Assembly (NCBI GenBank): GCA_018399285.1
Contig: JAGYOW010000010.1
Location: 1-64,000 of the forward strand
DNA: 64,000 bases
Source of the DNA: Desulfotignum sp.
GTDB taxonomy: Bacteria > Desulfobacterota > Desulfobacteria > Desulfobacterales > Desulfobacteraceae
Reading direction: 5' to 3'
Below the pieces are notes generated by a model that ran no database searches, had not been told where the DNA came from, and saw nothing but the letters and a program-made list of their open reading frames with translations. Shown here one piece after another: positions 3,081 through 47,357 of the stretch; the first letter of the stretch is position 1, and the number at the start of each line of letters is the position of its first letter. The position numbers and the translations under genes were made by a program.

Positions 3081-5168
3081 TTACACCGGTGTCACGGTGA
3101 CAAACGTATCATGAAATGCCGGACTGCCACCCACTTTGTCATAGACATTTTCCTGGAGCACGGCATCGGACAGCCCCCGATTGTACGACCGGGCCGCCCG
3201 TTTGGCTTCATGGCCGAATCCATGGGCCATGAACACGGCTTCGGGATGAATCAAGTCTGTGACAAACGCCTTGATCCGTCCTTTACCGCAGGCGGAAGCC
3301 ACTTCCACGGCGGCACCCTCTTGAATGCCCAGACTTGACGCTTTTTCACGGTTGATCCACAGCACGTTTTCATACATCAATTCATTGAGATACGGCACGT
3401 TCTGGGTGGAGATATGGGTATGAAGGGCGGTCCGTCCCACCACCAGTCGGAACTGCTTGTCCGGATCCGCCGGTTTTGACGGGGATTCATACAAAGGAAA
3501 TGACGGAAATCCGGCATCTTCCAGCAACGATGATTTAAATTCTATTTTTCCTGACGGCGTTTTAAAGGGAATATCGTTTCTGTCCCAGAAGATCTGAGAT
3601 TTGCCGTAACTGACAAATCCTTTTTCCTTGAAATCCGCCCGGGTGAAACCGGTGCCTTCCAATTGCCAGTCCACCAGTTCGTCCATGGTTTCATAGGGAA
3701 AATAGTCGCCGATCCCCAGCCGCTCTCCAAGACGTTTGAGAATAAGGGGGCCTTCCAGGGTATCATACCGGGGTTCCACGGCTTTTTCCCGCAGAAACAT
3801 CATGGGTTTGAGCCCGTTGAGCTGCTGGACGGAGTCAGTCCGTTCCAGATAGGTGGATTCCGGCAGAATCACATCCGAATACCAGGCAATATCCGAATAA
3901 TTGATATCAATGGTCACGATGAGATCCAGCTTGTCCAGGGCTTTTTTGGTATTGTTGGAATCTGCGATGGACATGAGGGTTTCCAGGCGATAATTGATCA
4001 ACGCCTTGATGGGGTAAGGGTCTTCATTGAGAATGGCATACGGCAGGATCTGCGGCACGCCATGGGCCGGATCCGGCAGCGGAAAATCCGGGGTCCCGAC
4101 CTTGTCGAACCGGGGGACCGTAATTTCAGGAAATGTCTGTTCCGTCAGCTTTCTGGCGGGTTTGCCGCCTTCTGCGCCCGGCCCTTTCTTGAAAAAGATA
4201 CCGCCTTTGGCTTCCACCGACCCCATGAGCGCATTGAGCATGAGAATGGACCGGCGCATATAGATTTCATTCTGATGATTGGCACACCGATATCCATAAT
4301 GAAAAATCACCCCGGGTTTGACTTTACTGATTTCCCTGGCCAGGGATTTAATTTCATTGGCAGGAATTCCGGTTTCCTGTTCCGCCCATTCCGGGGTGTA
4401 TTCTTTGATAAAATCCTGGAACTCGACAAACCCATGGACCCATTTATCCACATATGACGTATCATAGAGCCGTTCTTTGATAATCACGTTCATCAGCGCA
4501 TAGTTCAGGGCCAGGTCGGTTCCCGGCCGGATCATCCAGTACCGGTGCGCCTTGCCGGCGGTCACATTGACCCGGGGATCGATATAGGTAAGTTTGGCCC
4601 CTTTTTCCAGGGCATCCATCAAGGTGTTCACCTCTTTGACATTGATGGACTCAAAAATATTTCTGCCGTAAAGGACAATATGTTTGGTATTTCCATAATT
4701 AATACCCATCTGTCCGTCCGTATATCCGAACATGGACCGGCAGGCCGTGTTCATGGATCCCTTGCACAGGGCATCATGGGTGAAATGGTTGGGAGATCCC
4801 AATGCTTTTAAAAAAGTTTTGCTCACATGGGTGCTCAACTGGGCCCGTTCCCCCAGGGCAATGGCGTGTCCCCCATGGGTTTCTTTGATTTCCTTGAGCC
4901 GGGTTCCCACATAATCCAGGGCTTCGTCCCAGGACGCTTTGCGCCAGTTGCCGGAGCCTCTGTCCCCCACTCGGATCAAGGGTGTCTGAGGCCGCTGATC
5001 ATCCATCAACATGGATTTTCCGGCCGAGCCCCTGGGGCATAAACTGCCGTCAATACCCGGCACATGCGGGTTGCCCTGGAATCAAACCGATACGTCCAGT
5101 TCACACCGACTTTTATAAAGGCATCTGACCGAACACATGAAACATAAACTGAACACATCTTTATCCAT
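3081..5168 (-). CDS. molybdopterin oxidoreductase catalytic subunit, PsrA/PhsA-like, with an in-frame TGA near the N-terminus
   Basis: Catalytic subunit of the DMSO-reductase superfamily (bis-MGD Mo or W enzyme). An uninterrupted frame of 660 residues begins at a GTG at 5063. The same frame extends up to an ATG at 5168 behind a strong Shine-Dalgarno (AAGGAGA), broken only by one TGA at 5082-5084 (codon 29). The added N-terminus supplies the family's 4Fe-4S ligands: CFMCSVRC, then CPRG after GNPHVPGIDGSL. The probable metal-ligand region (DALCKGS) has Cys. There is no twin-arginine signal, so it should be cytoplasmic. The family reduces or oxidises sulfur compounds, formate or similar substrates; the substrate cannot be told from sequence. 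The TGA sits where relatives have an aromatic residue, so TGG mutation or sequencing error is the first guess. Two compensating indels or selenocysteine are alternatives. Confidence 0.75.
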
Positions 5169-33974: not shown

Positions 33975-36399
33975 CTAAACCACGGTTTCGGCAAAGGTCA
34001 CTTTATCGGTGATCCGGTCTTCCGGGGCCAGGCGGGTGAGCTTGACCATTTCAAATCCCGTGACTTTGATGAACACCTTGCCCGACATATCCGTCAGAAA
34101 AAGGTCATAGGTGTTGGTTTCTTCACCGGATTCCTTTTTCCGGGTAATGCACAGGTAGTCCGTGTGTTTTTCCACGGGAGCAAAAAAGGTCATGGCCGCG
34201 ATGCGGAAGGGCAAAACAGTTCTGGAGGTGGTTAAAAATTCCAGCAGTCCGCCGGTCTGGAACATGGCATCCACCAGCACCGGGGCCGCCTGGAAATTCG
34301 GATCGGTCACCCCTTTGAAAAACGGGGCCTCCGACCGGTCCGCCACCGTGGTGATCAGGGTTTTTCCATCAAAGGAGTTGATATCCGTGATGGTGCCGAA
34401 CAGCCCGAACATGAACAACCGGCTGGGATGATACACCAAATCAGCCAGGTCCCCTTCCCAGGACACGGGAGAAAATTCCGGCAGATCCAAGGTTTCAGGT
34501 GCCGGCCGTTGTTTTGCCAGGAAAAAATTCCCCTGGTAATGCTGTTTGGGGTCCCCCATCACTTTGCCGTTGGGGGTTTTGAACACTGACGTGATGCCAC
34601 AGGCAAACTCACCGGGTGCCTGCAGGGTTCCAGAGATGATGATCTCTTTGGGCCGCCCCTTGAGCAGCTTGATGCCATAGGGAATGGAAAAATCAGACAT
34701 TTTCGTGACCACAGACCCGTCCCCGGCCAAGGCAGCGGCTGCTTCGGCCATGGTTTCAATGCCCGTGGATCCTAAAAACAGCGGCACATCCCCCATGGTA
34801 TGGTCATGCAGAAACACGTCATGTTCCAGGTCCAGGACCCGGGTCCAGACCGCGGTATCATCCGCCTTGTGGGTCAAATCGCCTAAAAACGGAAACGCCT
34901 GATCTGACGGCGTTCCCAAAAGACCGTCAATGTCAAAATCATAATCCAGCCCGGAAAACACCATCTCCGATTCCGTGGCATCCAGCAGGTCAGCCATGAA
35001 GCACTTCACGCCCTGTTCCATGGGCAGAAACTGGATGCCCCGGTCTTCCAGCACCTTTTTCACCGTGGGGTTGGTGGCCATACCCACCCCGCCCCAGGCG
35101 GTCCAGGCATACACTTTGTAAGTGCGGTCCGGATGCATCTGTTTTTCTCTGAACAAGGCTTTGCCCAGAAAATCGTTGGCAGCCGTGTAATCCACCTGGC
35201 CCTGGTTGCCGAACCGGGCCGTGACCGATGAAAAAGTGAACATGTACCGGTATTCCCGGTCTCTGGCAGCTGCCAGCAGGTTCCGCATGCCTTTGACCTT
35301 GACATCCACCACCAGTTCAAAGGCGTTGCGCTCTTTTTTGGGGATGAACTGACTCATCTCCATGCCTGCCGCATGGAAGATTCCGTCAATGCGGTCACAC
35401 GCATCCACGGCCTGTTTCACCGCGTCAAAGTCGGTGACATCCGTACAGTGATAGGTCACGGAAATGCCCTGGGATTTCAAATACTCGATGTTGGCAATGG
35501 ATTGTCTGACCCGCACAAGCCGGTCCAGGGCCTGCTTCACAGCAACGGGTTTTTCCCCGGGCATCTGGCTGCGTAAAAGCCCCATCAGATCCGCTTCCGT
35601 GGCATCGGGCTTCAGCAGCGCCGGGTCTGTGGCATAGATATCGTTGATATCCAGGATCACCAGGTTGACCTGATAATCCGCCACCACCTGTTTGAGGATC
35701 TCATAGGTGATCCCTCCGGCCCCGCCCGTCACCAGCAGGGTGTCACCGTCCGACACAATGGGCTGATCCTTTCGGGCGGGTTCCGGGTGCATGGACAGCA
35801 CATACCGTTTCTTGTTTTTATACCCCACCTCACACCGGGGATCGTCGGACAGCAGTTCCGCCAGAAACAGGTCCGCAATCCGGGCCAGGCTCTTTTTGGG
35901 CTGCTTGTAGGAAAAATCCACCACCTTGACCCGGGTGTTTTCCAGCTCTTTGTTGGCGGTCTTGAGCAGACCGCTCAACCCGGAAAACAGCGGATGAATC
36001 TCCCCGCCGTCTTCCATATAAGGAAACACCACGGAATCAAAGGTAAGGGTGCCGACAAACGTGTCCGGACGGTCCAGCTGTTCATAACGTTTTGAGCAGC
36101 ACAACATGATTTCATTGTGGTGTTCAGATCTTTGTCTGTGCTAAATTCCCGGTTTTTCCGGTCAAACCAGGCATCCAGGGAAGCCAGGTGAAGATAGCCT
36201 GTGATGTCGGGATCGGTCTGTGCAAAGGCGTTTATAGCGGCCTGGAATCCGTCCAGGTCGGACAGATCCGTCACGTCCGCATTTTCAGTGCCCAGGGTGA
36301 TGACTTCACCGCCCATGGATTGAATCCGCTCAATAACGGCTTGGGCAAACCTGCTGGAATCCATGGACACCAGGAGCCGTTGCCCGGCAAAATCCGGCG
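33975..36399 (-). CDS. lipid megasynthase part 3: ketoreductase and dehydratase-like hot-dog domain
   Basis: The long open frame (33975-36107, 710 aa) and a preceding piece (about 36370-36100, with AQAVIERIQSMGGEVITLGTE) form a PUFA-type KR. The structural half includes TFVGTLTFDSVVFPYMEDGG and LSGLLKTANKELE. The catalytic half has the NADPH loop TGGAGGITYEI near 130 and the Ser-Tyr-Asn set in FSSVTARFGNQGQVDYTAAND. From about residue 410 a hot-dog domain follows, with HDHTMGDVPLFLG as the probable dehydratase His region and DAMFQTGG giving the acid-Gln pair. One frame change separates the two pieces near 36110. The protein ends here without a thioesterase, so release must use another route, for example direct transfer by an acyltransferase. 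Confidence 0.8.
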
Positions 36400-37639
36400 C
36401 CCGGGTTTCTGCATGTCTGCCTCATCCACCCGCACCACCAGACGTTTGATGGGAGAGGCCGGGTCCGGAAACCGGTCGTCTGGGCATCGAAACCGGTGCG
36501 TTTGCCCCAGGCAGGGACGGGCGAGTCAGGCCCATGCGCGCCAGGACCGTCTGCGTCTCCGGTTGGCACTGATCCGCTGATCCCGTGGCCGGGACGGGTT
36601 CTTCCGCCGGGGCCGATGCTACCGGGATCTTTGTCTGAATATAGGCGGCCAGCTTTTCAATGGTGTTCAGATCTCTGAGCCGCAGATCGTCCGGCACCGC
36701 AAACCCGAACCGGGACGCCACTCTTGCCGAAGACCTCCACCTGTTTGACCGTATCGATCCCCAGATCCGCTTCCAGGTCCAGGTCGTCGGCCAGCATGTC
36801 CGGGTGTAACCGGTCTGGGCGGCAATCACCTCTTGACCACGGTCGTGGTAGAGTCATCCCCACCGGCCGGGGTCACCACCCGTTCGCCGGAATCCATGGT
36901 ATGGGCCGTTGTCGGCATTGCGGAATCTGTGTCATGGGAGGACAAGGCCGTACCGACGGCTTGATCCGAAGCCGGTGTCCGGGAACCGTCTGAACCGGAT
37001 GCTGCGCCAGATCCGCTGCATGATCGGCCACATACGCGGTCAGTCTGGCAATGGTATTCAGATCCCTGGAGCCGCAGATCATCGGCACGGCAAACCCGAA
37101 ATGGGACGCCACCTACCGAAGATCTCCCCACCTGCTTCACCGTATCAATCCCCAGGTCCGCTTCCAGATCCAGGTCATCTTCCAGCATATCCGGGGTGTA
37201 ACCGGTCTGGGCCGCGATCACCTCCTTGACTTTGGCGAAAACCTGATCCGGCGGCACCGTGCCGGTTACCACGCGTTCCCCGAATCCATGGTATGGGCGG
37301 GCGCCGGGGAAGCGACGGCTGTATCCCTGTCCCGGTGATTTGCCCGGGGCCGCAGAATCCGGAGAAAGGCCGGATGCTGCCGCACCAGAAGCACCGGCAC
37401 CGGACCGGGCCGCCACATAGTCCGCCAGTTTTGCAATGGTGTTCAGATCCCGCAACCGCAAATCATCGGGCACGGCAAATCTGAAATCCGTGGCAATCTT
37501 GCCGAAGATCTCCACCTGTTTGACTGTATCGATGCCCAGATCCGCCTGTGATCCAGGTCATCTTCCAGCATGTCCGGGTGTAACCGGTCTGGGCGGCTAT
37601 GATCTGCTGGATCTTTCTGTTGCCTGGCCTTTGTCCGGC
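36400..37639 (-). CDS. lipid megasynthase: three tandem acyl carrier protein domains with Thr at the phosphopantetheine position
   Basis: Three near-identical ACP units with a period of about 385 bases lie at roughly 37430-37620, 37050-37240 and 36650-36840. Each reads AQTGYTPDML, DDLDLEADLG, IDTVKQVE, then FAVPDDLRLRDLNTIAKL. Where carrier proteins have DSL or DSI, all three have Asp-Thr-Val; the Thr codons are ACA at 37527-37525, ACG at 37143-37141 and ACG at 36752-36750. Copies 1 and 3 have CCGGG where copy 2 has CCGGGG, and that single lost G shifts frame just after GYT. Linkers between copies contain Ala/Pro/Ser-rich stretches. The frame of copy 2 is the most intact (within 36826-37515). 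Tandem ACPs of this spacing are a mark of PUFA-type synthases. Confidence 0.75.
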
Positions 37640-38700
37640 CCGGAAGCCGCGTTTACAGCCGGTCTATCCGATGTGGCTGCTGCACCTGAAGCGGTTGCAG
37701 GAACCCGGGAAACGGCTCCGGGGCTGCGTATTCGCGCGGCCGGCTGTTTTGTCGTCACTTTCTGAGGCCGGGTCTCCGGTGCCACTGCCGGGGGTCGCCG
37801 GATCACCGGCCACCACGCACAAGGTATTATCAATGAGTTTCAATTCCGGTTTCTGGACCCCGAAATGTTGCGCAGCCACCGGTGATAGGCCAGGCTGCCT
37901 TCCACCTTGTTTTCCTGGATGCGTTTGACAAACATGAACGCAAAATGGGATCCGAATCCCGCAGACAGATGCAGGCCGTATTCACTGTTGATCTGTGCCT
38001 GGCCGGAAAATTGAGTTTTTGAAGTGGGCCGGTATTTTGCTCAAATTGGCAATGGGCGGGGCCTTGCGCTGTTGCAGGGCCTTGACCAGGACCACGTCCT
38101 CAATGGCGGCGCCCAGGGTATGCCCGGTAAATCCCTTGGTGTTGGAGATGCAGATCTCACTGAGATGACTGGAAAGGCGGATTCCAGGGCTGTGACCTCG
38201 GCATCGGCACTGCCGCCTCTTGCCGGGGTATAGGTTTCATGGGACATGAACAACAGTTTGCCGGCATAGTCCTTTTTCTCAGTCCGGTGCGTTTTTCCAC
38301 CTTGTTGGATAAATTTGGTCATCTCTTTGACATGTGGGTACATCGATATTGTACGTATGGTACGCGGAGTTGGCGATGTGCGTGCCCAGGATCTCGCACT
38401 GGCCGTTCATGCCCCGTTTTGACACTCCTGTTTCATTTCGATCACCAGGCTCACGGCCCCGGCCCCAGGATGGTGCCGTTGCGGTCCTCATCAAAGGGTT
38501 TGGCTGCTTCAGACACCCGTTTTTTAATGGTGGCGGCGCCTAAAGCCAGAAATCCTGATCCTACCCACTGGTTTCTTTTGCGCGCAGACGTGGCGTTTTC
38601 ACCGCCCACCACCAGCACCCGCTTGCACCGGCCCGTGCGGATCCAGTCCTCGCATACTGATGGCCAGCGTGGTGGAAGCACACGCGGACGACAATCAGGG
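37640..38700 (-). CDS. lipid megasynthase: C-terminal half of ketosynthase 3, in several frames
   Basis: Pieces in order are SACASTTLAISM (Cys nucleophile), RVLVVGGENATSARKRNQWVGSGFLALGA, AAKPFDEDRNGTILGPG, then KKDYAGKLLFMSHETYTP with the first catalytic His in an HETYT variant of HGTGT, then NTKGFTGHTLGAAIED with the second His, and LVKALQQRKAPPIANLSKI. All three catalytic residues of KS3 therefore survive. After the KS, a linker rich in Ala, Pro and Thr leads to the ACP region. At least four frame changes occur within about 700 bases, which is too many for a recent single event and fits local poor sequence quality. Confidence 0.65.
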
Positions 38701-41700
38701 TGTTGGGGCCTTTGGCCTGATGATCTTGGCCAGGTGAGCCGATCCCAGGGCAGGCATTGGCCAGAAAATTTCTATCAAAGGTATAGGCGGAAAATCTGCG
38801 TTTTCTGGCCTTGGACTTGAAGAACCATTCCGTGAGCGATTCTTTGATGTCGATCTCCTTGATGCGCTCCATCAGAAAATAGTAGATCTTTTCAAATTCT
38901 TCATGGGGCCGCAGAAAAAACCGCTCATAAAAGTATTTTTCCAGTTCCGCCATCAGGGTTTCGCCGCTGGGCCACAACGAGGTGATGATCACCCCGGTGT
39001 CTTCCTGCATCTCTAACGGCAGGGCAAACCCTTCCGGCACCATGCTTCGGCCGCCCTTCATTTTCTTGTACTGCATCACCAGAGGAATATGCGCGTCTTT
39101 GAGGGCTTCAATGCCTGCGGCAATGCCCAGAGACATGGCCACATCATACTGTTCCTTGATGCCGTATTCATCGGTGAGATCAAAATACCCCAGCTGGCCG
39201 GCCAGATGGATCACATCCTCGGTGCGGGTGATCTGAACGAACCGGGCATTGCCGTCCGGCTGTTTGTACAGTTTGGTGATGTTCTTGTCCGTGATCCGCT
39301 CCTGGGCTTCCAGGGTCAGGGGTTCAATAAAATTTTCCCCGTTGAGAATGGCATTGAAATTGTCCGTGGCAAACACCCGCCGGCCCTTGCCGGGCAGGCC
39401 CACGGACACGCCGGAGATCAGAATGCGGCCGGTGTTGAAATCAAACCGGTCCATGGCATGAATGGCCGCCTCGCGTTTCTGGCGCTCAAACTCCTGATAC
39501 AGGATCTGGTCCAGCTGTTCCTTGTTTTCTTCCTTGAATTGTTCAAAATCATGGGACAGGTTCATCCGGGGCAGGGCCTCCTCCAAAACGGGTTCACTTG
39601 TCTGTTCATCCGGTGTTGCCGGCAGTGCGGGCAGGTCTTCCGGCGGATGCTCAAACAGGCTGTTGCAGCCGATCAGGTATTGCCGGCAGGCTTCAAACGC
39701 TGCCACTTCCCCCTGCCGGGTATCCACAGACACGGCCGTGCCGTAGTCTCCGATGTTGATGTGTTTGAGCAGGTTTACCAGGAGCCGGGAAGGCCCGATC
39801 TCGATAAAATGGGTCCGGCCGGACACATACACGTTTTCCACGGACCGGATGAACTCCACCGGGGACACGATCTGCCGGGCCAGAAGATCCTTGACCTCTT
39901 TTTCACTTTCCGGATAGGGCCGGGCCAGGGTGTTGGAGATGATCCGGTTGAACCGGGTCTTGTTAAAGGTCAGGGTATCCAGGAACGCTCTCAGTTCGTC
40001 CGCAGCCGGCTGGAGCAGCGGGGTGTGAAACGCCCCCGTGAGATTGAGCTTCTTGTACGACACTTCCTGCTGGGACAAAAAGGTACAGAAATTGTCGATG
40101 GCTTCGGCTTTGCCGGACACGGCCGTCTGTTTTTCACTGTTTTTGTTGGTGATATAAATATCGGAGATAAAGGATTGGCGCAGCAATGCTTGTGTGTCTT
40201 TTTCATTTTTAAACACCACCATGATTTTTCCCGGCTGCTTCAGGGTGCTCTCGTACATGAGATCCGAGCGCTTGATGATCAGGCGCAAGGCATCTTCAAA
40301 CCCCAGCATGCCCGAACAGAACAATGCCGTGTATTCCCCCACGGAATGGCCGATGAAATAGTCCGGGGTAAACCCTTCTTTCGCCAGGCGGGAACAGATG
40401 GCGGCTGAAGACAGAAACACGGCCGGCTGGGTGTTCTGGGTGGAATTCAGGGCCGGGTCGTCCCCGAACATCATGTCCAGGATGGAATATCCCCGCACGT
40501 CAAAAAAGACGGCATCCCCTTTGTCCAGCACTTTTCGAACATGGGCGTCCGCTTCATACAGCTGTTTCATCATGCCCGGCCGCTGGGCCCCCTGGCCGGA
40601 CAGCAACGCCACCATGCGCAGTTTTTTGCCGCCGGGGCCCGCAGAATAGGCCGTGTCCGTCACCACCAGGTCATCGCCGGACACCTGGCGGTATTCCGCT
40701 TCGATCACGGGCTGGTCCGGGGCCGCGTCTTTCAGATCCAGAACCCGGGGCAGGGTGCCCATGATCAGATGGGCGTGATTGCCACCGATACCGTTGACAT
40801 TGGCGGCAAACCGCAGGGGCTGTCCCGGTTTTCTGTCAACCGGCTTTGTGGCGGGGGTCAATACCTTGCTGTGGTTCAGCGTGGAATGATCCGCATCATA
40901 ATTGAAATCCGGCAGAATCTGGCCTTTCTGGTTCATGAGCATGAGCTTGGCCATGGCCACGGCCGGATTGGCCGCCTTGAAATACCCGAACTGGGGCTTG
41001 ATATTGCCGCAGTGCATTTTATGGGAAAAGCTGGCCTGGATCACCTGCTGCTCGACCATGTCCCCGAACACATTGGAAAACGCGAACAGATCCAGGTGGT
41101 TGATGTCTGACTTGCGGATGCCGGACCGCTGGTAGGCCTCGTTGATCACGGATTTAAAGGTCTGCTCCGACGGGGCCAGCAGATGATCGGGCACGGACGA
41201 GCGCACGGTGCAGTCATGAATCTCGCCTAAAATCGTCATGCCCGCTTCCCGGGCTTTTTTCAGGGTGGTCAGCACATGGATGGCGGCCCCTTCTCCCATC
41301 ACATACCCCTGGGCCCGGCTGTCAAAAAAGTATCCGTTTGTTCCGGACAAAAGCCCTAAGCGTTTGAACGCCATGAGCACGGCCGGGTAAAGGTTGCAGT
41401 CCACCCCGCCGGCCAGGACAAAATCCAGATCCCTGTGCTTGAGCATCCGGGCCGCGTTCCGGATGGCAATGGTGGCTGAGGCGCAGGAAGCGTCGACCAC
41501 GTAGTTGGCCCCGTTGAGCCCGAAATGGTTGGCAATACGTCCGGAAATAATGTTGGACAGCAGCCCCGGCGTGGTGTCTTCATTGTTTTCCGGAATGGTG
41601 TTCCGGATCACGGCCAGCAGATCGTCGGCCACGGCCTTTGCCCGGGATTTGTCCACGCCTTCGGCGTTTGTCACGGCATTGGCGATGACCTGTTTTCTCA

Positions 41701-41845
41701 CCCGGATGATGTTCTTGCTCTGGCGCTCCCCGGCAATGGTGCCTAAGATGACCCCGGTTCTGGCCGGCCCGCCGTCCACGGATGACAGACCGGACGAGGC
41801 CAGGGCCTCATCTGCGGCCTCCAGCCCGAAAATCGGCCCGCTCAA
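38561..41845 (-). CDS. lipid megasynthase part 2: KS2 (histidine-less), acyltransferase, start of KS3
   Basis: An open frame of 1094 aa. KS2 has its Cys at 121 (DASCASA), but both catalytic His are replaced: the HGTGT segment reads LFAFSNVFGD with Phe254, and the KxxxGH segment reads KPQFGYFKAAN with Tyr288. The AT domain (about 410-700) has the nucleophile Ser501 in GHSVGEY and AFHTPLL for the partner His, consistent with malonyl transfer. A helical linker leads to KS3 near 800 (ILISGVSVGLPGKGRRVF). The KS3 nucleophile region SACASTTLA is readable in the next frame near 38690, after a frame change. The last 60 residues of the open frame are therefore out of frame. Confidence 0.85.
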   Translation of the reverse strand: MSGPIFGLEAADEALASSGLSSVDGGPARTGVILGTIAGERQSKNIIRVRKQVIANAVTNAEGVDKSRAKAVADDLLAVIRNTIPENNEDTTPGLLSNIISGRIANHFGLNGANYVVDASCASATIAIRNAARMLKHRDLDFVLAGGVDCNLYPAVLMAFKRLGLLSGTNGYFFDSRAQGYVMGEGAAIHVLTTLKKAREAGMTILGEIHDCTVRSSVPDHLLAPSEQTFKSVINEAYQRSGIRKSDINHLDLFAFSNVFGDMVEQQVIQASFSHKMHCGNIKPQFGYFKAANPAVAMAKLMLMNQKGQILPDFNYDADHSTLNHSKVLTPATKPVDRKPGQPLRFAANVNGIGGNHAHLIMGTLPRVLDLKDAAPDQPVIEAEYRQVSGDDLVVTDTAYSAGPGGKKLRMVALLSGQGAQRPGMMKQLYEADAHVRKVLDKGDAVFFDVRGYSILDMMFGDDPALNSTQNTQPAVFLSSAAICSRLAKEGFTPDYFIGHSVGEYTALFCSGMLGFEDALRLIIKRSDLMYESTLKQPGKIMVVFKNEKDTQALLRQSFISDIYITNKNSEKQTAVSGKAEAIDNFCTFLSQQEVSYKKLNLTGAFHTPLLQPAADELRAFLDTLTFNKTRFNRIISNTLARPYPESEKEVKDLLARQIVSPVEFIRSVENVYVSGRTHFIEIGPSRLLVNLLKHINIGDYGTAVSVDTRQGEVAAFEACRQYLIGCNSLFEHPPEDLPALPATPDEQTSEPVLEEALPRMNLSHDFEQFKEENKEQLDQILYQEFERQKREAAIHAMDRFDFNTGRILISGVSVGLPGKGRRVFATDNFNAILNGENFIEPLTLEAQERITDKNITKLYKQPDGNARFVQITRTEDVIHLAGQLGYFDLTDEYGIKEQYDVAMSLGIAAGIEALKDAHIPLVMQYKKMKGGRSMVPEGFALPLEMQEDTGVIITSLWPSGETLMAELEKYFYERFFLRPHEEFEKIYYFLMERIKEIDIKESLTEWFFKSKARKRRFSAYTFDRNFLANACPGIGSPGQDHQAKGPNTLIVVRVCFHHAGHQYARTGSARAGASGCWWWAVKTPRLRAKETSG

Positions 41846-42359
41846 TGGATTTTACCATGGTGGGGGCATCCGGTACTTAAGATTGTTGAATTTAAAGTCT
41901 TTGACCACCCCGGCCTTGACTTCAGGCAGGTGATAAATGGAATTTTCAGGAAACGCGGCATAGGCTTTTGTGTCAAATGATCCTCCCCCAGCGGGGTGAC
42001 CTGTTTTTCGCCGCTGCTCAGTTTTTCCCAGAACATCTGCGTGTTTGTTGCACCGGCAGAAACACGCCCAGTCCGGCCACCACGATGCGGTCATCATTGA
42101 AATCATGGGCCGGATTTGAAAACATATCCGGAAAGGGGCAGATATGAGTCAACCATCTCCTGCACCACCACATGGTAGTTGATGCCGCCGAACCCATAGG
42201 AAGATACGGCTGCTCCGGGGCGCGTTTTCCGGGCGCTGCCATTCTTCCGGATCTTTGACGATAAAAAGCGAAGAATTTGACAGATCATGGTTTTTAGACA
42301 GGGTTTCAAACTGCCCGTTGGGGGCAGCATGCCCTTGTCCACCGCCAAAAGCGCCTTGA
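41846..42359 (-). CDS. lipid megasynthase: end of ketosynthase 1 and start of ketosynthase 2, frameshifted
   Basis: Joining two frames recovers coding sequence between the two long open pieces. One frame continues KS1 with LLAVDKGMLPPTGSLK and the end motif SSYGFGGINYHVVV. A second opens KS2 with DDRIVVAGLGVFLPG, then NTQMFWEKLSSGEKQVTPLGED. The phrase AYAAFPENSIYHLPEVKAGVV follows in another frame and joins the downstream frame at about 41845. At least three frame changes occur in 500 bases. One, near 42450, is explained by a lost T in a run of three; sequencing error is favoured. Confidence 0.65.
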
Positions 42360-45300
42360 TCAGCCCGGCGGTCCCCGCCGCCCCCAGCAGATGCCCGATC
42401 TGGGACTTGATGGAGGAGATGCCGGCATGGTTGTCTTTGTACCGGAATTCAGGGTTTCCAGCTCCGCGGCATCCCCGATGGTGGTGGAGGTGCCGTGGGC
42501 TTCGATGAACCCGATGTCAGCGGGAGAGATTTCCGGCCGGGTGTGTTCAAAGCAGCGCTGAACGCTCAATACCTGGCCCCGGGGGTTGGGGGCGGCAATG
42601 GACTTGCCCCGGCCGTCGGAAGAGGCCCCGATCCCGTTGACCACCCCCAGGATCCGGTCGTTGTCCCGGATGGCGTCTTTCATGCGCTTGAGCACAAACA
42701 CCACAGACCCTTCTCCCAGCACAAACCCGTCGGCCCGCTGATCAAAAGGATAGGATCCCCTGGCTGACAAGGTCCCCATTTTGGCGAACCCGATAAAGGA
42801 TTCCGGGGCCAGGTGGGTGTTGACCCCGCCCACGATCACCTGGTCATGCTCGCCGGAGAGCAGCTCGCCGATTCCCGCTTCCAGAGCTGTGATGGACGAG
42901 GCGCAGGCCGCATCCACAATATAGTTGGCCCCCCGGACCCCTAAGTGCCGGGCGATGCGGGACGCCTCGATGTTTAAAAGAATCCCGTGCACCGGGTCAT
43001 ACCCTTTATGTTCCCCTTCCAGTTGTGATTGAAGGTTTTCTCGAATACTGGTTTTTTCATCTTCGGACAGCGCAGCCCAGGCCTCGGTTTTTTCCATCAT
43101 GGACAGAATCTGGGGGAACCAGTATTTGAGCTGCAATGTGTTGCCCAGTTCATTGGACAGGCAGGTGGCGATGATCACGGCGGTTCTCTGGGGATCTTCA
43201 CAGATCAACTGATCCTTGTCATCCACAAGGCCGGCATTTTCCACGGCTTTGTAAGCGGTCTGCAACACCATCTGCTGGCTCCGGGACAACCGTTTGGCCT
43301 TGTCCGGGGCATACCCGAACCGTTCATGATCAAATTGAAAATCATCCACCACTCCAGCCAGAATGGTGTAGGTTCTGTCTTCGGCAGTCCGGTCCGGACT
43401 GTAATACAGATCTTTGTCAAACCGGTGGTCCGGCATGGGTTTGATGGCGTATTTTTTTCCCAGGATATTGTCCCACAGGGCATCCGGGGTGTCGGCACCC
43501 GGCAGGGTACATCCCATGCCAACCACGGCAATCTCGTCGTTGATCCGGTTTTTCGGGCTGAAAAGGACCTCCAGCTGGTTCAGGTGATGAAACAATCGGG
43601 ATTTGGCCGTAAAATAAGTCTCATGGATCTGTTGAATGGTGACATCCTTTTTAAAGAACGCCAGGCTGTCTCCCACCAGAAAATTGCCTTTTTCCCGGTG
43701 TTCCTCATCCTTGAACCAGGTGTAGTACTGCTCTCCGGGCCGTTTGAAATCCGGCATAAACCCTTTTGCGCCGATCAGCAAAGACCCGATGTTTTTCTTT
43801 TCAAAGGCCCGCTTGCGTTCATCCAGGCCGACCTTGTCCAGGATCATGTTGTCTTCCAGTTCTTTCATTCTTTTTGCAAATGGCGTAGGCGCGGTGCGGG
43901 AAGCCAGGCCCAGACTTTTGCCGATCACCACGGTCTCATCTTTTTCAATGATGATATCCTGGTATTGTTTGGTGACACTCCGGGTTTTTACGATCTCCTG
44001 GGAAAACAGATAGGCCGTGCCCACCTGCAAGCCGATGGCAGCGCCTTTTTTGGCCAGAAACGAGGTCATGCCGGAGATGAAAAACGAGGCAAAACAGGTG
44101 GAGATGCCGCCGGCAAACACCAGCGAGATTTTTGACAAATCCTGATTCCGGCTCACCAGCGTTTCAATGGCCCCTTCCCACAGCACCAGGGAAGACAGAA
44201 ACCCCACATGTCCCCCGGCTTCCCCGCCTTCGAAAATGAACCGGATGCATCCGCTTTTCAATGCATTTTCCATCATGGGCACGGACGGGGTGTGCAGATA
44301 GGTTTTGGTGCCGGCCGCCTCCAGGTCCCGCACCTGGGAGGGAATGCCCCCGGCAAACAGGGCAAAGGGGATCTTGTATTTTTTCACCATGTCCAGATGC
44401 TTGTGCACCATGGGGTTGAACGCTTCAATGCCCACCAGGCCGGCCCCGCAGTTAGACACTTTTTTCTTTCCTTTAGACAGCATCTCATCGGCCAGAGACG
44501 CGGGCAAAGATCCCACGGCAAAAAACGGCAGGGCCCCGGCATCCAGCACTTTTGCCGCAAATTCCGGGTTGTCGGATATATTGGCCATGGGCCCCTGGAT
44601 CAAGGGCAGCCGGGTGTTCTGGTTCCGGGCGAACGGTGAGTTTTCTTTCACCGGGTCAAACGCATCCACACAGTCGAGCACCTGGCCCAGCGTAACAAAA
44701 AAATCATGGATCATCTCAGACAGTTTATGGGATTTTTTTGCCATATGCCGGGCAAACAGCCCGTCCTGTCCCATGAAGAACAGCGACTGGACAAACGGGG
44801 CCTGGGTATCGTTCAATGCGATGATCTGAGAGGCTATTTTTTCATACAGCTGCTGTTCTCCGTTTTCCTGTTCTCCCAGCAGCACGGCGTCCTGCTTCAG
44901 GTCTCTGACCACTTTAGTGCCCAGTTTGGCAAATACCCGGAACACCTGTTTGTCCTGGATGCTGATCTCTGTGGAATCGCCCTCCTCCACCATGGCCAGC
45001 AGATTTTTAAAGGCCGGGGACACCGGCGCTTCGTCTGCCAGCAGCACCTGGGTATCCATGACAAAACCGGACACCCCGGCGGCCAGCATGCCCGCACCTG
45101 TGTACTGTCCCACCCCGCCGTGAACAAACACCGGCCGGTTCTGGTGTTTCAGGTACCACTGCATGAGAATGAAAGAAGAGTATTTGGACACCTGTCCGGC
45201 GGCCTCGTTGCCCTTGAGGATCAGGCCATGGGGATCGGCTTGATCAATCCGGGCGGTCAGGCCGATATCCTTGATCTCCAGCAACACCCGGGTGTCGCCT

Positions 45301-45611
45301 AAATTCGGCTTTTCAAGGGTGTCACCTGTTTTAGATACGGGCATCACCACCAGGTCCAGGTTGGATACCGGCTGTTTTTCCAGGGCTTTGAGCACCGGTA
45401 AATCCAATGATGCCAGCCGGATACCGAAAACAATATTTTCTTTGGACAACTGAAGGATCTTTTGCAGGATCTCTTTGCTGTCCAGAAATTCAGTGTCAAA
45501 CACAGGCAAAGCCCCCGCCGCATAAACAGCGTGAAAATAAGCAAGGTCAAACACCTTGACCGGGGTGTAGATCATCAGCGGCAGCCGGGAGTGCAAAATG
45601 CGTGTTATCAT
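42360..45611 (-). CDS. lipid megasynthase part 1: tandem NPD/enoyl reductase-like barrels and ketosynthase 1
   Basis: An open frame of 1083 aa. Residues 1-330 and 335-640 are two consecutive TIM-barrel domains of the nitronate monooxygenase / PfaD enoyl-reductase family; they begin RLPLMIYTPV and RLPLIQGPM. Barrel 2 keeps the FMN-site phrase GGEAGGHVG with His468. In barrel 1 the aligned phrase is GNEAAGQVS, with Gln140 in place of His. From about 690, KS1 starts IAVVGMGCTLPG, has its nucleophile Cys903 in DAACASS and His1039 in EAHGTST. The frame then breaks near 42450; the next frame supplies KSQIGHLLGAAGTAG with the third catalytic residue, so KS1 looks active. The ATG at 45611 lies about 95 bases after a predicted sigma-54 start site. 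Confidence 0.85.
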   Translation of the reverse strand: MITRILHSRLPLMIYTPVKVFDLAYFHAVYAAGALPVFDTEFLDSKEILQKILQLSKENIVFGIRLASLDLPVLKALEKQPVSNLDLVVMPVSKTGDTLEKPNLGDTRVLLEIKDIGLTARIDQADPHGLILKGNEAAGQVSKYSSFILMQWYLKHQNRPVFVHGGVGQYTGAGMLAAGVSGFVMDTQVLLADEAPVSPAFKNLLAMVEEGDSTEISIQDKQVFRVFAKLGTKVVRDLKQDAVLLGEQENGEQQLYEKIASQIIALNDTQAPFVQSLFFMGQDGLFARHMAKKSHKLSEMIHDFFVTLGQVLDCVDAFDPVKENSPFARNQNTRLPLIQGPMANISDNPEFAAKVLDAGALPFFAVGSLPASLADEMLSKGKKKVSNCGAGLVGIEAFNPMVHKHLDMVKKYKIPFALFAGGIPSQVRDLEAAGTKTYLHTPSVPMMENALKSGCIRFIFEGGEAGGHVGFLSSLVLWEGAIETLVSRNQDLSKISLVFAGGISTCFASFFISGMTSFLAKKGAAIGLQVGTAYLFSQEIVKTRSVTKQYQDIIIEKDETVVIGKSLGLASRTAPTPFAKRMKELEDNMILDKVGLDERKRAFEKKNIGSLLIGAKGFMPDFKRPGEQYYTWFKDEEHREKGNFLVGDSLAFFKKDVTIQQIHETYFTAKSRLFHHLNQLEVLFSPKNRINDEIAVVGMGCTLPGADTPDALWDNILGKKYAIKPMPDHRFDKDLYYSPDRTAEDRTYTILAGVVDDFQFDHERFGYAPDKAKRLSRSQQMVLQTAYKAVENAGLVDDKDQLICEDPQRTAVIIATCLSNELGNTLQLKYWFPQILSMMEKTEAWAALSEDEKTSIRENLQSQLEGEHKGYDPVHGILLNIEASRIARHLGVRGANYIVDAACASSITALEAGIGELLSGEHDQVIVGGVNTHLAPESFIGFAKMGTLSARGSYPFDQRADGFVLGEGSVVFVLKRMKDAIRDNDRILGVVNGIGASSDGRGKSIAAPNPRGQVLSVQRCFEHTRPEISPADIGFIEAHGTSTTIGDAAELETLNSGTKTTMPASPPSSPRSGICWGRRGPPG

Positions 45612-45878: not shown

Positions 45879-47357
45879 ATGAAAAAAGCCGTACTGACCC
45901 AGACCGAGCGCCATTTTTTCAAAACCGTCCACAACGCGGCTTTTGCCAACCCGTTCAGTGAACTGCGGGAACGCCTGGATCAAAAAATCGCCGGGCTGTT
46001 CCCGTCTGCGGCCCGCCGGAAAAGCAAGGACATGTGCGTGCTGGAAGTGGACCGGCAGCTCAAAAAACTGGCCCGCCAGAACAGAGGCAACATCAATCAG
46101 TACACGGGAGAGGACCGGGAAGTGCTGCGGGTGGTGTATCTGTTCGATGTTTTCCATAAATTCCGGGACCGGTTTGATCAGCTGATCCAGGATCAGATCA
46201 CGGCCCAGGATGAGCCCGTGCCCGTGAATTTTGTGGATGAAGCCAGGGAAATGATGAAGGAAAAAGGGTTTTCCACCTCCCGGTTTTACCATTATTTTGC
46301 CCTGTCTTTTCAACTGCGCCGGGCATTTTATTTTATCTCAAACACCCTGGTGGGTGCCAGCCCCTGTATGAAAACCTTTAAAAAACACCTCTGGTACAAC
46401 GTGTTTACCTACAATATCGGGCTGTATGACCAGCATCTGTGGAACCGGATGGAAGATTTTTCCACACTGCTTCTAGGAGAGACCGGCACGGGCAAAGGCA
46501 CGGCCGCCCGAGCCATCGGCATGAGCGGATTCATTCCTTTTGACATAAAATGCGGCTGTTTTGTTCAAAGCTTCACCCGGGCGTTTTCCTCATTAAACCT
46601 GTCCCAGTATCCGGAAACCCTTTTGGAATCCGAACTGTTCGGTCACACCAAAGGGGCATTCACCGGGGCCGTGGAAGATTACCAGGGGGTGCTGGACCGG
46701 TGCAGCCCCCATGGCGCCATTCTTTTAGATGAAATTGGAGAGATCCCGGACCATATCCAGGTCAAACTGCTGCGGGTACTCCAGGAACGCACCTTTACCC
46801 CCGTGGGTGCCCATAGGCTGTCCCGTTTCAACGGCCGGGTCATTGCCGCCACCAACCGTCCGAAAAAAGAGATCATGGACGGCCGGGTCTTTAGAGAAGA
46901 TTTCTATTACCGGCTGTGCTCGGACATCATTGAAGTACCGCCCCTGCGCACCCGGATTCAACAGGATCCGGCCGAACTGGACACCCTCCTGGATTTCACG
47001 GTCACCCGCATGCTCGGTCTGGCGTCACCGAAAATCACGACCAAAATCAAAAGAATTATTGACCGCCGCTTGGGAAACCATTATAGCTGGCCTGGAAATG
47101 TCCGGGAACTGGAGCAATGTGTGAGAAGCGTGCTGCTCCGAAGAGATTACTTAGGCAAACAGGCGCCCGAAGACGTATCTCTTTCCAGTTTTCTGTGTCA
47201 GGGCATTCAGGCCCAGGATCTGCCGGTTTCCGACCTGTTGTCCGGATACTGCACCCTGTTGTATGAAACTTTGGGCACCTATGAAAAAGTGGCCCAAAAA
47301 ACCGGGCTGGACAGACGAACAGTCAAAAAATATATCATGACCCACAAACAGACATAA
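45879..47357 (+). CDS. sigma-54-dependent AAA+ activator with an unrecognised N-terminal domain
   Basis: A 492-aa cytoplasmic regulator. Residues 1-180 are helical and charged and match no receiver, PAS or GAF pattern that I can see. The AAA+ domain follows with Walker A GETGTGKG near 205, the sigma-54 contact loop in ELFGHTKGAFTGA near 250-262, Walker B GAILLDEIGE, and FREDFYYRL. YSWPGNVRELEQCV precedes a C-terminal Fis-like helix-turn-helix (KVAQKTGLDRRTVKKYI). All motifs needed for open-complex formation are present. It is divergent from the megasynthase and 9 bases upstream of the acyltransferase, so it probably activates the sigma-54 promoter at 45719. The input signal may be read by the novel N-terminal domain. 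Confidence 0.85.
   Translation: MKKAVLTQTERHFFKTVHNAAFANPFSELRERLDQKIAGLFPSAARRKSKDMCVLEVDRQLKKLARQNRGNINQYTGEDREVLRVVYLFDVFHKFRDRFDQLIQDQITAQDEPVPVNFVDEAREMMKEKGFSTSRFYHYFALSFQLRRAFYFISNTLVGASPCMKTFKKHLWYNVFTYNIGLYDQHLWNRMEDFSTLLLGETGTGKGTAARAIGMSGFIPFDIKCGCFVQSFTRAFSSLNLSQYPETLLESELFGHTKGAFTGAVEDYQGVLDRCSPHGAILLDEIGEIPDHIQVKLLRVLQERTFTPVGAHRLSRFNGRVIAATNRPKKEIMDGRVFREDFYYRLCSDIIEVPPLRTRIQQDPAELDTLLDFTVTRMLGLASPKITTKIKRIIDRRLGNHYSWPGNVRELEQCVRSVLLRRDYLGKQAPEDVSLSSFLCQGIQAQDLPVSDLLSGYCTLLYETLGTYEKVAQKTGLDRRTVKKYIMTHKQT

Follow-up and report, generated by a model that had tools for sequence, protein, structure and literature searches.

Threonine-bearing carrier domains in a Desulfotignum megasynthase and its relatives, with a putative dedicated phosphopantetheinyl transferase

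The window analysed here, a 64,000-nucleotide stretch of Desulfotignum sp. DNA (contig JAGYOW010000010.1, positions 1 to 64,000), contains on its minus strand the gene for a very large multidomain synthase (approximately 33975-45611), hereafter the Thr megasynthase. Its three acyl carrier domains carry threonine (Thr) at the position where, by the textbook, acyl and peptidyl carrier proteins have their attachment serine (Ser). The gene is not one open frame, with breaks at 36.1-38.8 kb and near 42 kb, and its parts and divergent neighbour are as follows (insertions and deletions, or indels, are counted against the near relative G405; identifiers beginning with G, C and L are our handles for genomes, contigs and loci).

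33975-36107, minus strand: C-terminal part of the megasynthase with ketoreductase (KR) and PS-DH dehydratase (DH), a start-to-stop open reading frame of 710 aa (Pfam KR, E=7e-27; PS-DH, E=2.1e-10)
36627-36859, minus strand: third acyl carrier domain, Thr codon ACG at 36752-36750, reading LGIDTVKQVE; the same domain is open in G405, and the ends are inferred from a 77-aa alignment
37018-37250, minus strand: second acyl carrier domain, Thr codon ACG at 37143-37141, from motif and pattern match; indel near 37126
37402-37634, minus strand: first acyl carrier domain, Thr codon ACA at 37527-37525, from motif and pattern match; PP-binding E=3.2e-5 for the half-domain
36080-38800, no strand: low-quality stretch with 46 indels, disrupting the third ketosynthase (KS) and the carrier array
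38561-41845, minus strand: middle part of the megasynthase with the second KS-like domain and the acyltransferase (AT) (Pfam ketoacyl-synt, E=3.9e-30; Acyl_transf_1, E=6.5e-42)
41830-42450, no strand: second low-quality stretch, 8 indels
42360-45611, minus strand: N-terminal part of the megasynthase with an NMO/FabK-like enoyl reductase region and the first KS (Pfam NMO, E=1.9e-18; ketoacyl-synt, E=8.9e-61)
45879-47357, plus strand: sigma-54-dependent activator gene, divergent from the megasynthase (Pfam Sigma54_activat, E=3.5e-41)

LGIDTVKQV is present three times on the minus strand. The first-pass annotation, made from the sequence alone, had read LGIDTVKQVE in each copy, with the Thr codons ACA, ACG and ACG. 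Pattern matches gave the same codons at the positions listed, and the longer reading stands for copies 1 and 3, which run on into E, whereas copy 2 loses the frame directly after DTVKQV and has no in-frame VE. Relative to G405 (97.1% identity) the window holds 57 indels in the compared stretch, mostly of one base, with 46 in 36.08-38.80 kb, 8 in 41.8-42.5 kb and 3 elsewhere, and the Thr codons are untouched by them. These dense clusters probably reflect an unpolished or poorly polished assembly, and other odd features reported from 36080-38800 or 41830-42450 are to be distrusted.

Relatives were sought in genome contigs using the carrier-free KR/DH part as query, which gave 38 loci whose titles name Desulfotignum, Desulfobacula or Desulfospira, or are more general (Desulfobacteraceae, Deltaproteobacteria bacterium). 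With further genomes included, 35 open frames of 3,500-4,200 residues were collected, the megasynthase being around 3,900 residues long. As L036 and L081 are the same gene, the 35 rows represent 34 distinct proteins, and the copy and domain counts given below hold this gene twice. A motif search with a wildcard at the attachment residue returned 123 copies, all with Thr, encoded by ACG (78), ACA (24), ACC (15) and ACT (6); with all four Thr codons in use, synonymous codons interchange freely, whereas the residue is fixed. The surrounding sequence LEADLG-[IV]-DTVKQ is almost invariant (Thr-carrier peptide: DLEADLGIDTVKQVEIF), and in an alignment of 120 copies none of the positions -11 to +7 relative to the Thr is a Ser.

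To avoid selecting by motif, a carrier profile was built from 44 domains (19 Thr, 25 Ser), and every open frame of 60 or more residues in 54 loci was scanned with it at E≤1e-4. Two loci had no carrier in the piece examined, and the remaining 52 yielded 151 carrier domains with Thr in 151/151 (147/147 in 51 loci without the duplicate gene), including a degenerate fourth repeat in L075 (IDTLKLVD) and the carrier of a short separate frame in L078. At this threshold the scan detected no separate Ser carrier in any of the 54 loci. The first-pass annotation had argued that the Thr is not a repeated sequencing error and had suspected GIDTVKQ to be a family trait, and both suggestions are borne out, the pattern being found across the relatives and extending to a second phylum. 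What it had named as contrary evidence, namely a conserved Ser in the same loop or homologous loci with DSV, did not appear: the loop is free of Ser in the aligned copies, and no relative carrier at the same place has Ser.

Among 59 relative genomes the T-type pattern was present in 37, while a wider pattern admitting Ser matched in 55. Among the matches listed, the split is between DTVKQ and DSIK[RK], and both often occur within one genome. In the genome of the window itself, the carriers of a PfaA-like protein read LGVDSIKK and LGVDSIKR, and AcpP reads LGADSL. The idea that V and Q after the attachment residue are peculiar to Thr was rejected, as the flanking residues vary more outside the relatives, where Ser carriers from Azospirillum read DSVKR and DSIKQ. 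Two further arrangements were observed. L078 holds a separate 120-residue frame (3931-4290, minus strand) with one Thr-type carrier, located downstream of the main gene, which might be a Thr acyl carrier protein (ACP) in its own right or else a gene remnant, and contigs C3 and C8 of G403 each bear a Thr carrier array with identical motif DNA, possibly a recent duplication or an assembly duplicate.

The Pfam family PP-binding (PF00550) matched the carriers of the relative L008 in three stretches (E=3.4e-22) and those of L036 in four (E=8.5e-29). The domains thus show the profile match and, by model, the four-helix fold of the family but not its Ser, which is replaced by Thr in every domain scanned. 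The model of an L008 carrier, based on 52 related domains, has a mean predicted local distance difference test score of 89 and four helices, with Thr37 as the first residue of helix II. Compared to the PDB, it gave 43 matches at E≤0.001, with template modelling scores of about 0.8-0.9 to ACP structures, and the matches listed are acyl carrier proteins or complexes containing one, including AcpS-ACP. The first-pass suggestion that the repeats might not be acyl carriers is therefore disfavoured, as they score as PP-binding domains, take the ACP fold in the model and are flanked by catalytic domains that are conserved.

The domain order of L008 comprises the NMO/FabK-like enoyl reductase region (the FabK-like match being below the cut-off), KS, KS-like, AT, KS, three carriers, KR and DH. 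Across the 35 rows, the catalytic Cys of the first and third KS, the Ser of the AT motif GHSxGE and the KR motif YxxxN are present without exception; one DH His is present in 34 rows, the other row showing a gap. The second KS-like domain has its Cys in 30 of the 35 rows, with 4 gaps and 1 row without Cys.

One of the nearest described systems is the PfaA-type polyunsaturated fatty acid (PUFA) synthase (TIGR02813), which L008 resembles in its tandem carriers, located as in PfaA between the acyltransferase and the KR, in its KS-AT-ACP-KR order and in the length of the similarity (E=3.5e-240). However, L008 scores 800.3 bits against a cut-off of 1010.1 and falls outside the family so defined. 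The Thr megasynthase furthermore differs from PfaA in being a single chain with an N-terminal enoyl reductase region, three KS domains and a terminal DH, in reading DTVKQ instead of DSIKR, and in belonging to a separate KS clade.

Of 395 genomes sampled evenly across the phylum, 6 have the T-type pattern, and 4 of these (G102, G312, G330, G386) are from one family (f65) of another order, in which 15 of 18 genomes surveyed have it. A tblastn search of plasmid records gave 14 matched records, 8 of which were read. The record of Nonomuraea gerenzanensis (Actinomycetota), from the plasmid collection, reads LGVDTVKQAE with the Thr codon ACG, and the other seven (two Streptomyces, Rhodococcus, Embleya, Persicobacter and two Azospirillum) read Ser, one carrier of L087 not being read through. 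Phage records gave no match. In a tree of the first KS domain with 32 rows, 9 of which carry no Ser/Thr label, the 16 Thr systems including Nonomuraea form one clade (95/99) and the 7 labelled Ser systems fall outside it. As the Thr systems share a single clade, the Thr carriers look like one old lineage.

Phosphopantetheinyl transferase (PPTase) genes were identified with PF01648 in the 59 relatives. In eight genomes a PPTase lies downstream of the megasynthase on the same strand, and in seven of these (G413, G421, G422, G426, G436, G437, G441) it is the directly following frame; in the eighth, G432, it starts about 1.2 kb on, after two short frames. The intergenic gap is, for example, 15 bases in L217 and 7 in L218. 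In G186 the PPTase lies about 8 kb off on the other strand. In the order of f65 the PF01648 match is within the megasynthase frame itself, at its C-terminus. Such a fusion was found in 10 of the 13 f65 genomes examined (L070-L073, L230-L232, L234-L236), corresponding to 10 of the 11 frames with a stop codon in view: L233 and L237 leave the contig before the PPTase place, and in L238, which has no PPTase, the stop comes around 115 bases short of the contig edge. The Nonomuraea gene run consists of an acyl-CoA dehydrogenase, the Thr polyketide synthase, a large protein read from its N-terminus as biotin-carboxylase-like, and a PPTase whose twelve best matches among 118 PPTases are all fused, adjacent or members of the clade described below. 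For Ser-type loci, a PPTase was found in the stretch examined at 0/9 loci of this phylum and at 0/6 plasmid loci.

These 118 PPTases, including those of G396 and G402 and leaving out the match G440:C7, were used to construct a phylogenetic tree, in which a clade of 34 (96/99) holds all 9 adjacent enzymes. A clade PPTase is encoded by 32 of the 37 genomes with the Thr pattern and by 2 of the 22 without (Fisher p=3e-9, kinship ignored). The two latter, G396 (78% complete) and G398 (87%), are of the same genus as the window, and G440:C7, from a genome without the Thr pattern, has its best matches outside the clade. Among the 23 genomes outside the window's family, the clade enzyme occurs in 6/6 with and 0/17 without the Thr pattern (p=1e-5). 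The co-occurrence of GIDTVKQ with an Sfp-type transferase, proposed in the first-pass annotation as a way to check its reading, is what the survey found.

Within the clade PPTases, the columns corresponding to D152, E154, E192 and K196 of L004 are invariant in 34/34 members and in 4/4 fused domains, when 34 clade and 4 fused rows were compared to 56 other rows (24 of the 118, comprising the L005 group, AcpS-like enzymes and long branches, were left out). We take these to be the metal-binding and catalytic residues of Sfp, so the enzymes have what an Sfp-type PPTase needs in that respect. They are like HetI and other Sfp-type PPTases (PF01648) in keeping these Asp, Glu, Glu and Lys columns, and the best NCBIfam match is HetI, below the cut-off. 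They are set apart from these by the signature K[KR]xxEWxxG[RK], common to clade PPTases and fused domains, and by their co-occurrence with Thr carriers. The clade PPTase of the window genome is L004 on contig C162, unlinked to the megasynthase and adjoined by a gene read as an acyl-CoA synthetase. A second Sfp-type PPTase of the same genome lies in L215 (G000:C159, 2-9226), by sequence reading in a small cluster with KS-like and ABC transporter genes, perhaps a separate lipid or polyketide cluster.

Taken together, the three domains are likely to be working carriers of a single-chain, PUFA-synthase-like synthase that bear phosphopantetheine on Thr, placed there by a dedicated and co-inherited Sfp-type PPTase. 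The protein would be a type I fatty acid or secondary lipid synthase (enoyl reductase-KS-KS-AT-KS-carriers-KR-DH), in which the 4'-phosphopantetheine arm would be attached to Thr instead of Ser and acyl chains would be carried on the Thr-attached arm. From gene order, co-occurrence and conserved residues we infer that the Thr hydroxyl is the modified site and the linked PPTase the modifying enzyme, which favours the special transferase acting on Thr that the first-pass annotation had offered as one option. This PPTase would have been inherited along with the megasynthase: it is fused in one order, lies downstream in several Desulfobacterales, shares the gene run in Nonomuraea, and is unlinked in the window genome. 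Poor handling of Thr by ordinary PPTases may be why it was retained, as the failures of E. coli AcpP S36T described below would suggest. Judging from the KS, AT, KR, DH and enoyl reductase-like domains, the product is likely to be a saturated or partly unsaturated acyl chain. More speculatively, by using Thr and not Ser the synthase might keep its carriers distinct from those of AcpP and PfaA within one cell.

Several observations weigh against this reading. Five genomes with the Thr pattern lack a clade PPTase, namely G399 (96% complete), G400, G404 (93%), G412 and G418, and apart from a weak match in G412 a direct protein search repeated the result, so that another PPTase must act in genomes such as G399 and G404 unless the gene is missing from the assembly. 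Conversely, G432 and G444 have the Thr pattern and show a clade PPTase only, by PF01648, so Ser carriers, too, may be served by the clade enzyme. In the tree the fused PPTases fall outside the adjacent clade, despite the signature that the two share, and the window-family loci from the KR/DH scan have no PPTase in the stretch examined, the enzyme being encoded elsewhere there. Ser systems can likewise be linked to a PPTase, as in the Ser-type Streptomyces locus L083 and in several types of secondary lipid synthase (PMC3098273).

Some of these points favour an explanation in which Thr is modified by ordinary broad-range PPTases, the linked enzyme being a PfaE-like helper and not specific for Thr. 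This differs from a dedicated transferase in enzyme specificity only. G399 and G404, which have the Thr megasynthase and other PPTase clades only, would fit it, as would G432 and G444, which seem to have a single PPTase for everything, and the frequent presence of a PPTase near known secondary lipid synthases (PMC3098273). However, the clade tracks the Thr megasynthase and not the Ser-type PfaA, whose loci are without a PPTase in the counts above, L083 being the sole exception, and it is missing from 20 of the 22 genomes without the Thr pattern, which makes the broad-range explanation rather unlikely.

A further alternative is that the Thr domains are unmodified and serve as scaffolding or docking modules, with the catalytic domains using acyl groups brought in trans by AcpP or coenzyme A. 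The genome does contain genes for a conventional AcpP and for a PfaA of the Ser type. Ser36 mutants of E. coli ACP have reportedly been studied in vitro with AcpS. The engineered E. coli AcpP S36T, which also has Thr at the attachment position, failed in two assays that count against modification of Thr: it does not rescue a lapD mutant (PMC9456370) and does not bind IscS (PMC13343975), although the passages concerned report no measurement of the arm itself. That protein is a laboratory mutant, whereas in the natural carriers Thr has been fixed by evolution and is paired with a PPTase. If the domains were unmodified, the fused, adjacent and co-occurring PPTase would have no evident purpose. 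The nearly invariant recognition loop also argues against this alternative, as does the fact that the profile scan, at its threshold, detected no Ser carrier in any of the 54 loci; we regard the alternative as improbable. That the Thr stems from sequence errors or a decayed gene, as the frameshifts filling the window gene could suggest, is refuted by the 34 distinct open relatives, the different codons and the Thr in all 151 domains.

What may be the same synthase has been described earlier. The Type S secondary lipid synthase has Desulfobacterium autotrophicum HRM2 as its sole listed member, with one uncharacterised representative (Shulse and Allen 2011, PMC3098273). In that paper, Type S is among the types most often found with a PPTase in direct proximity (P1b' motif), and it is suggested to be possibly the core fatty acid synthase of HRM2, as HRM2 is without fabA and fabZ. 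G422 is very probably D. autotrophicum HRM2, and its Thr megasynthase with the PPTase 7 bases downstream agrees with the described proximity, by which we infer that Type S corresponds to the Thr megasynthase and not to the Ser-type locus that G422 also has. In part, then, the megasynthase as such has already been described. The words 'threonine' and 'serine' are absent from the main text of that paper, and in the Creative Commons-licensed PMC literature searched, outside which most subscription papers lie, no natural Thr carrier, Thr trait or pairing of Thr with a PPTase was found.

A carrier without Ser may be taken for dead. If the reading of the Thr carriers as modified is true, a natural lineage with fixed Thr and its own PPTase would change the Ser rule, reveal a set of live synthases and offer a ready-made orthogonal carrier/transferase pair for engineering. 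Since Type S has been suggested as possibly the core fatty acid synthase of HRM2 (PMC3098273), the membrane lipids of an ecologically important group of sulfate reducers may depend on this synthase. In its broadest form, the proposal is of a second natural attachment residue, with an ancient type I lineage of Desulfobacterota and Actinomycetota working on phosphopantetheinyl-threonine, with partly fused, co-inherited PPTases and Ser/Thr as an orthogonal code, and to this we give an even chance.

The suggested core role in fatty acid synthesis was probed by a survey of dehydratases (FabA/FabZ, PF07977) in the 59 relatives, taking frames of up to 210 aa as of stand-alone FabZ size. Among the matches listed, the window's family has such frames in 3 of its 36 genomes surveyed (G426, with partial matches in G429 and G402), and the other families in 16 of their 23, four of the six with the Thr pattern (G436, G437, G441, G186) among them. 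The rarity of stand-alone FabZ in the window's family agrees with its reported lack in HRM2, but as these four keep FabZ, its loss follows the family and not the Thr trait, and a core role is no more than possible. In the window's family, most of the FabA-type matches listed fall within large frames (about 1,400 and 2,500 aa), a hint that the dehydratase step has passed to type I systems in this family.

As for the neighbouring regulator, tblastn found a sigma-54 activator upstream in 0/4 loci of the order of f65, where L070 and L071 matched weakly at a different gene, and in 0/8 Ser-type PfaA loci. A divergent activator of this type adjoins the Thr megasynthase in 11 of the 12 full-length loci of the window's order with at least 1.5 kb upstream, that of L069 and L080 being cut by the locus edge, and the gene at 45879-47357 is thus a candidate for a regulator specific to the Thr megasynthase.
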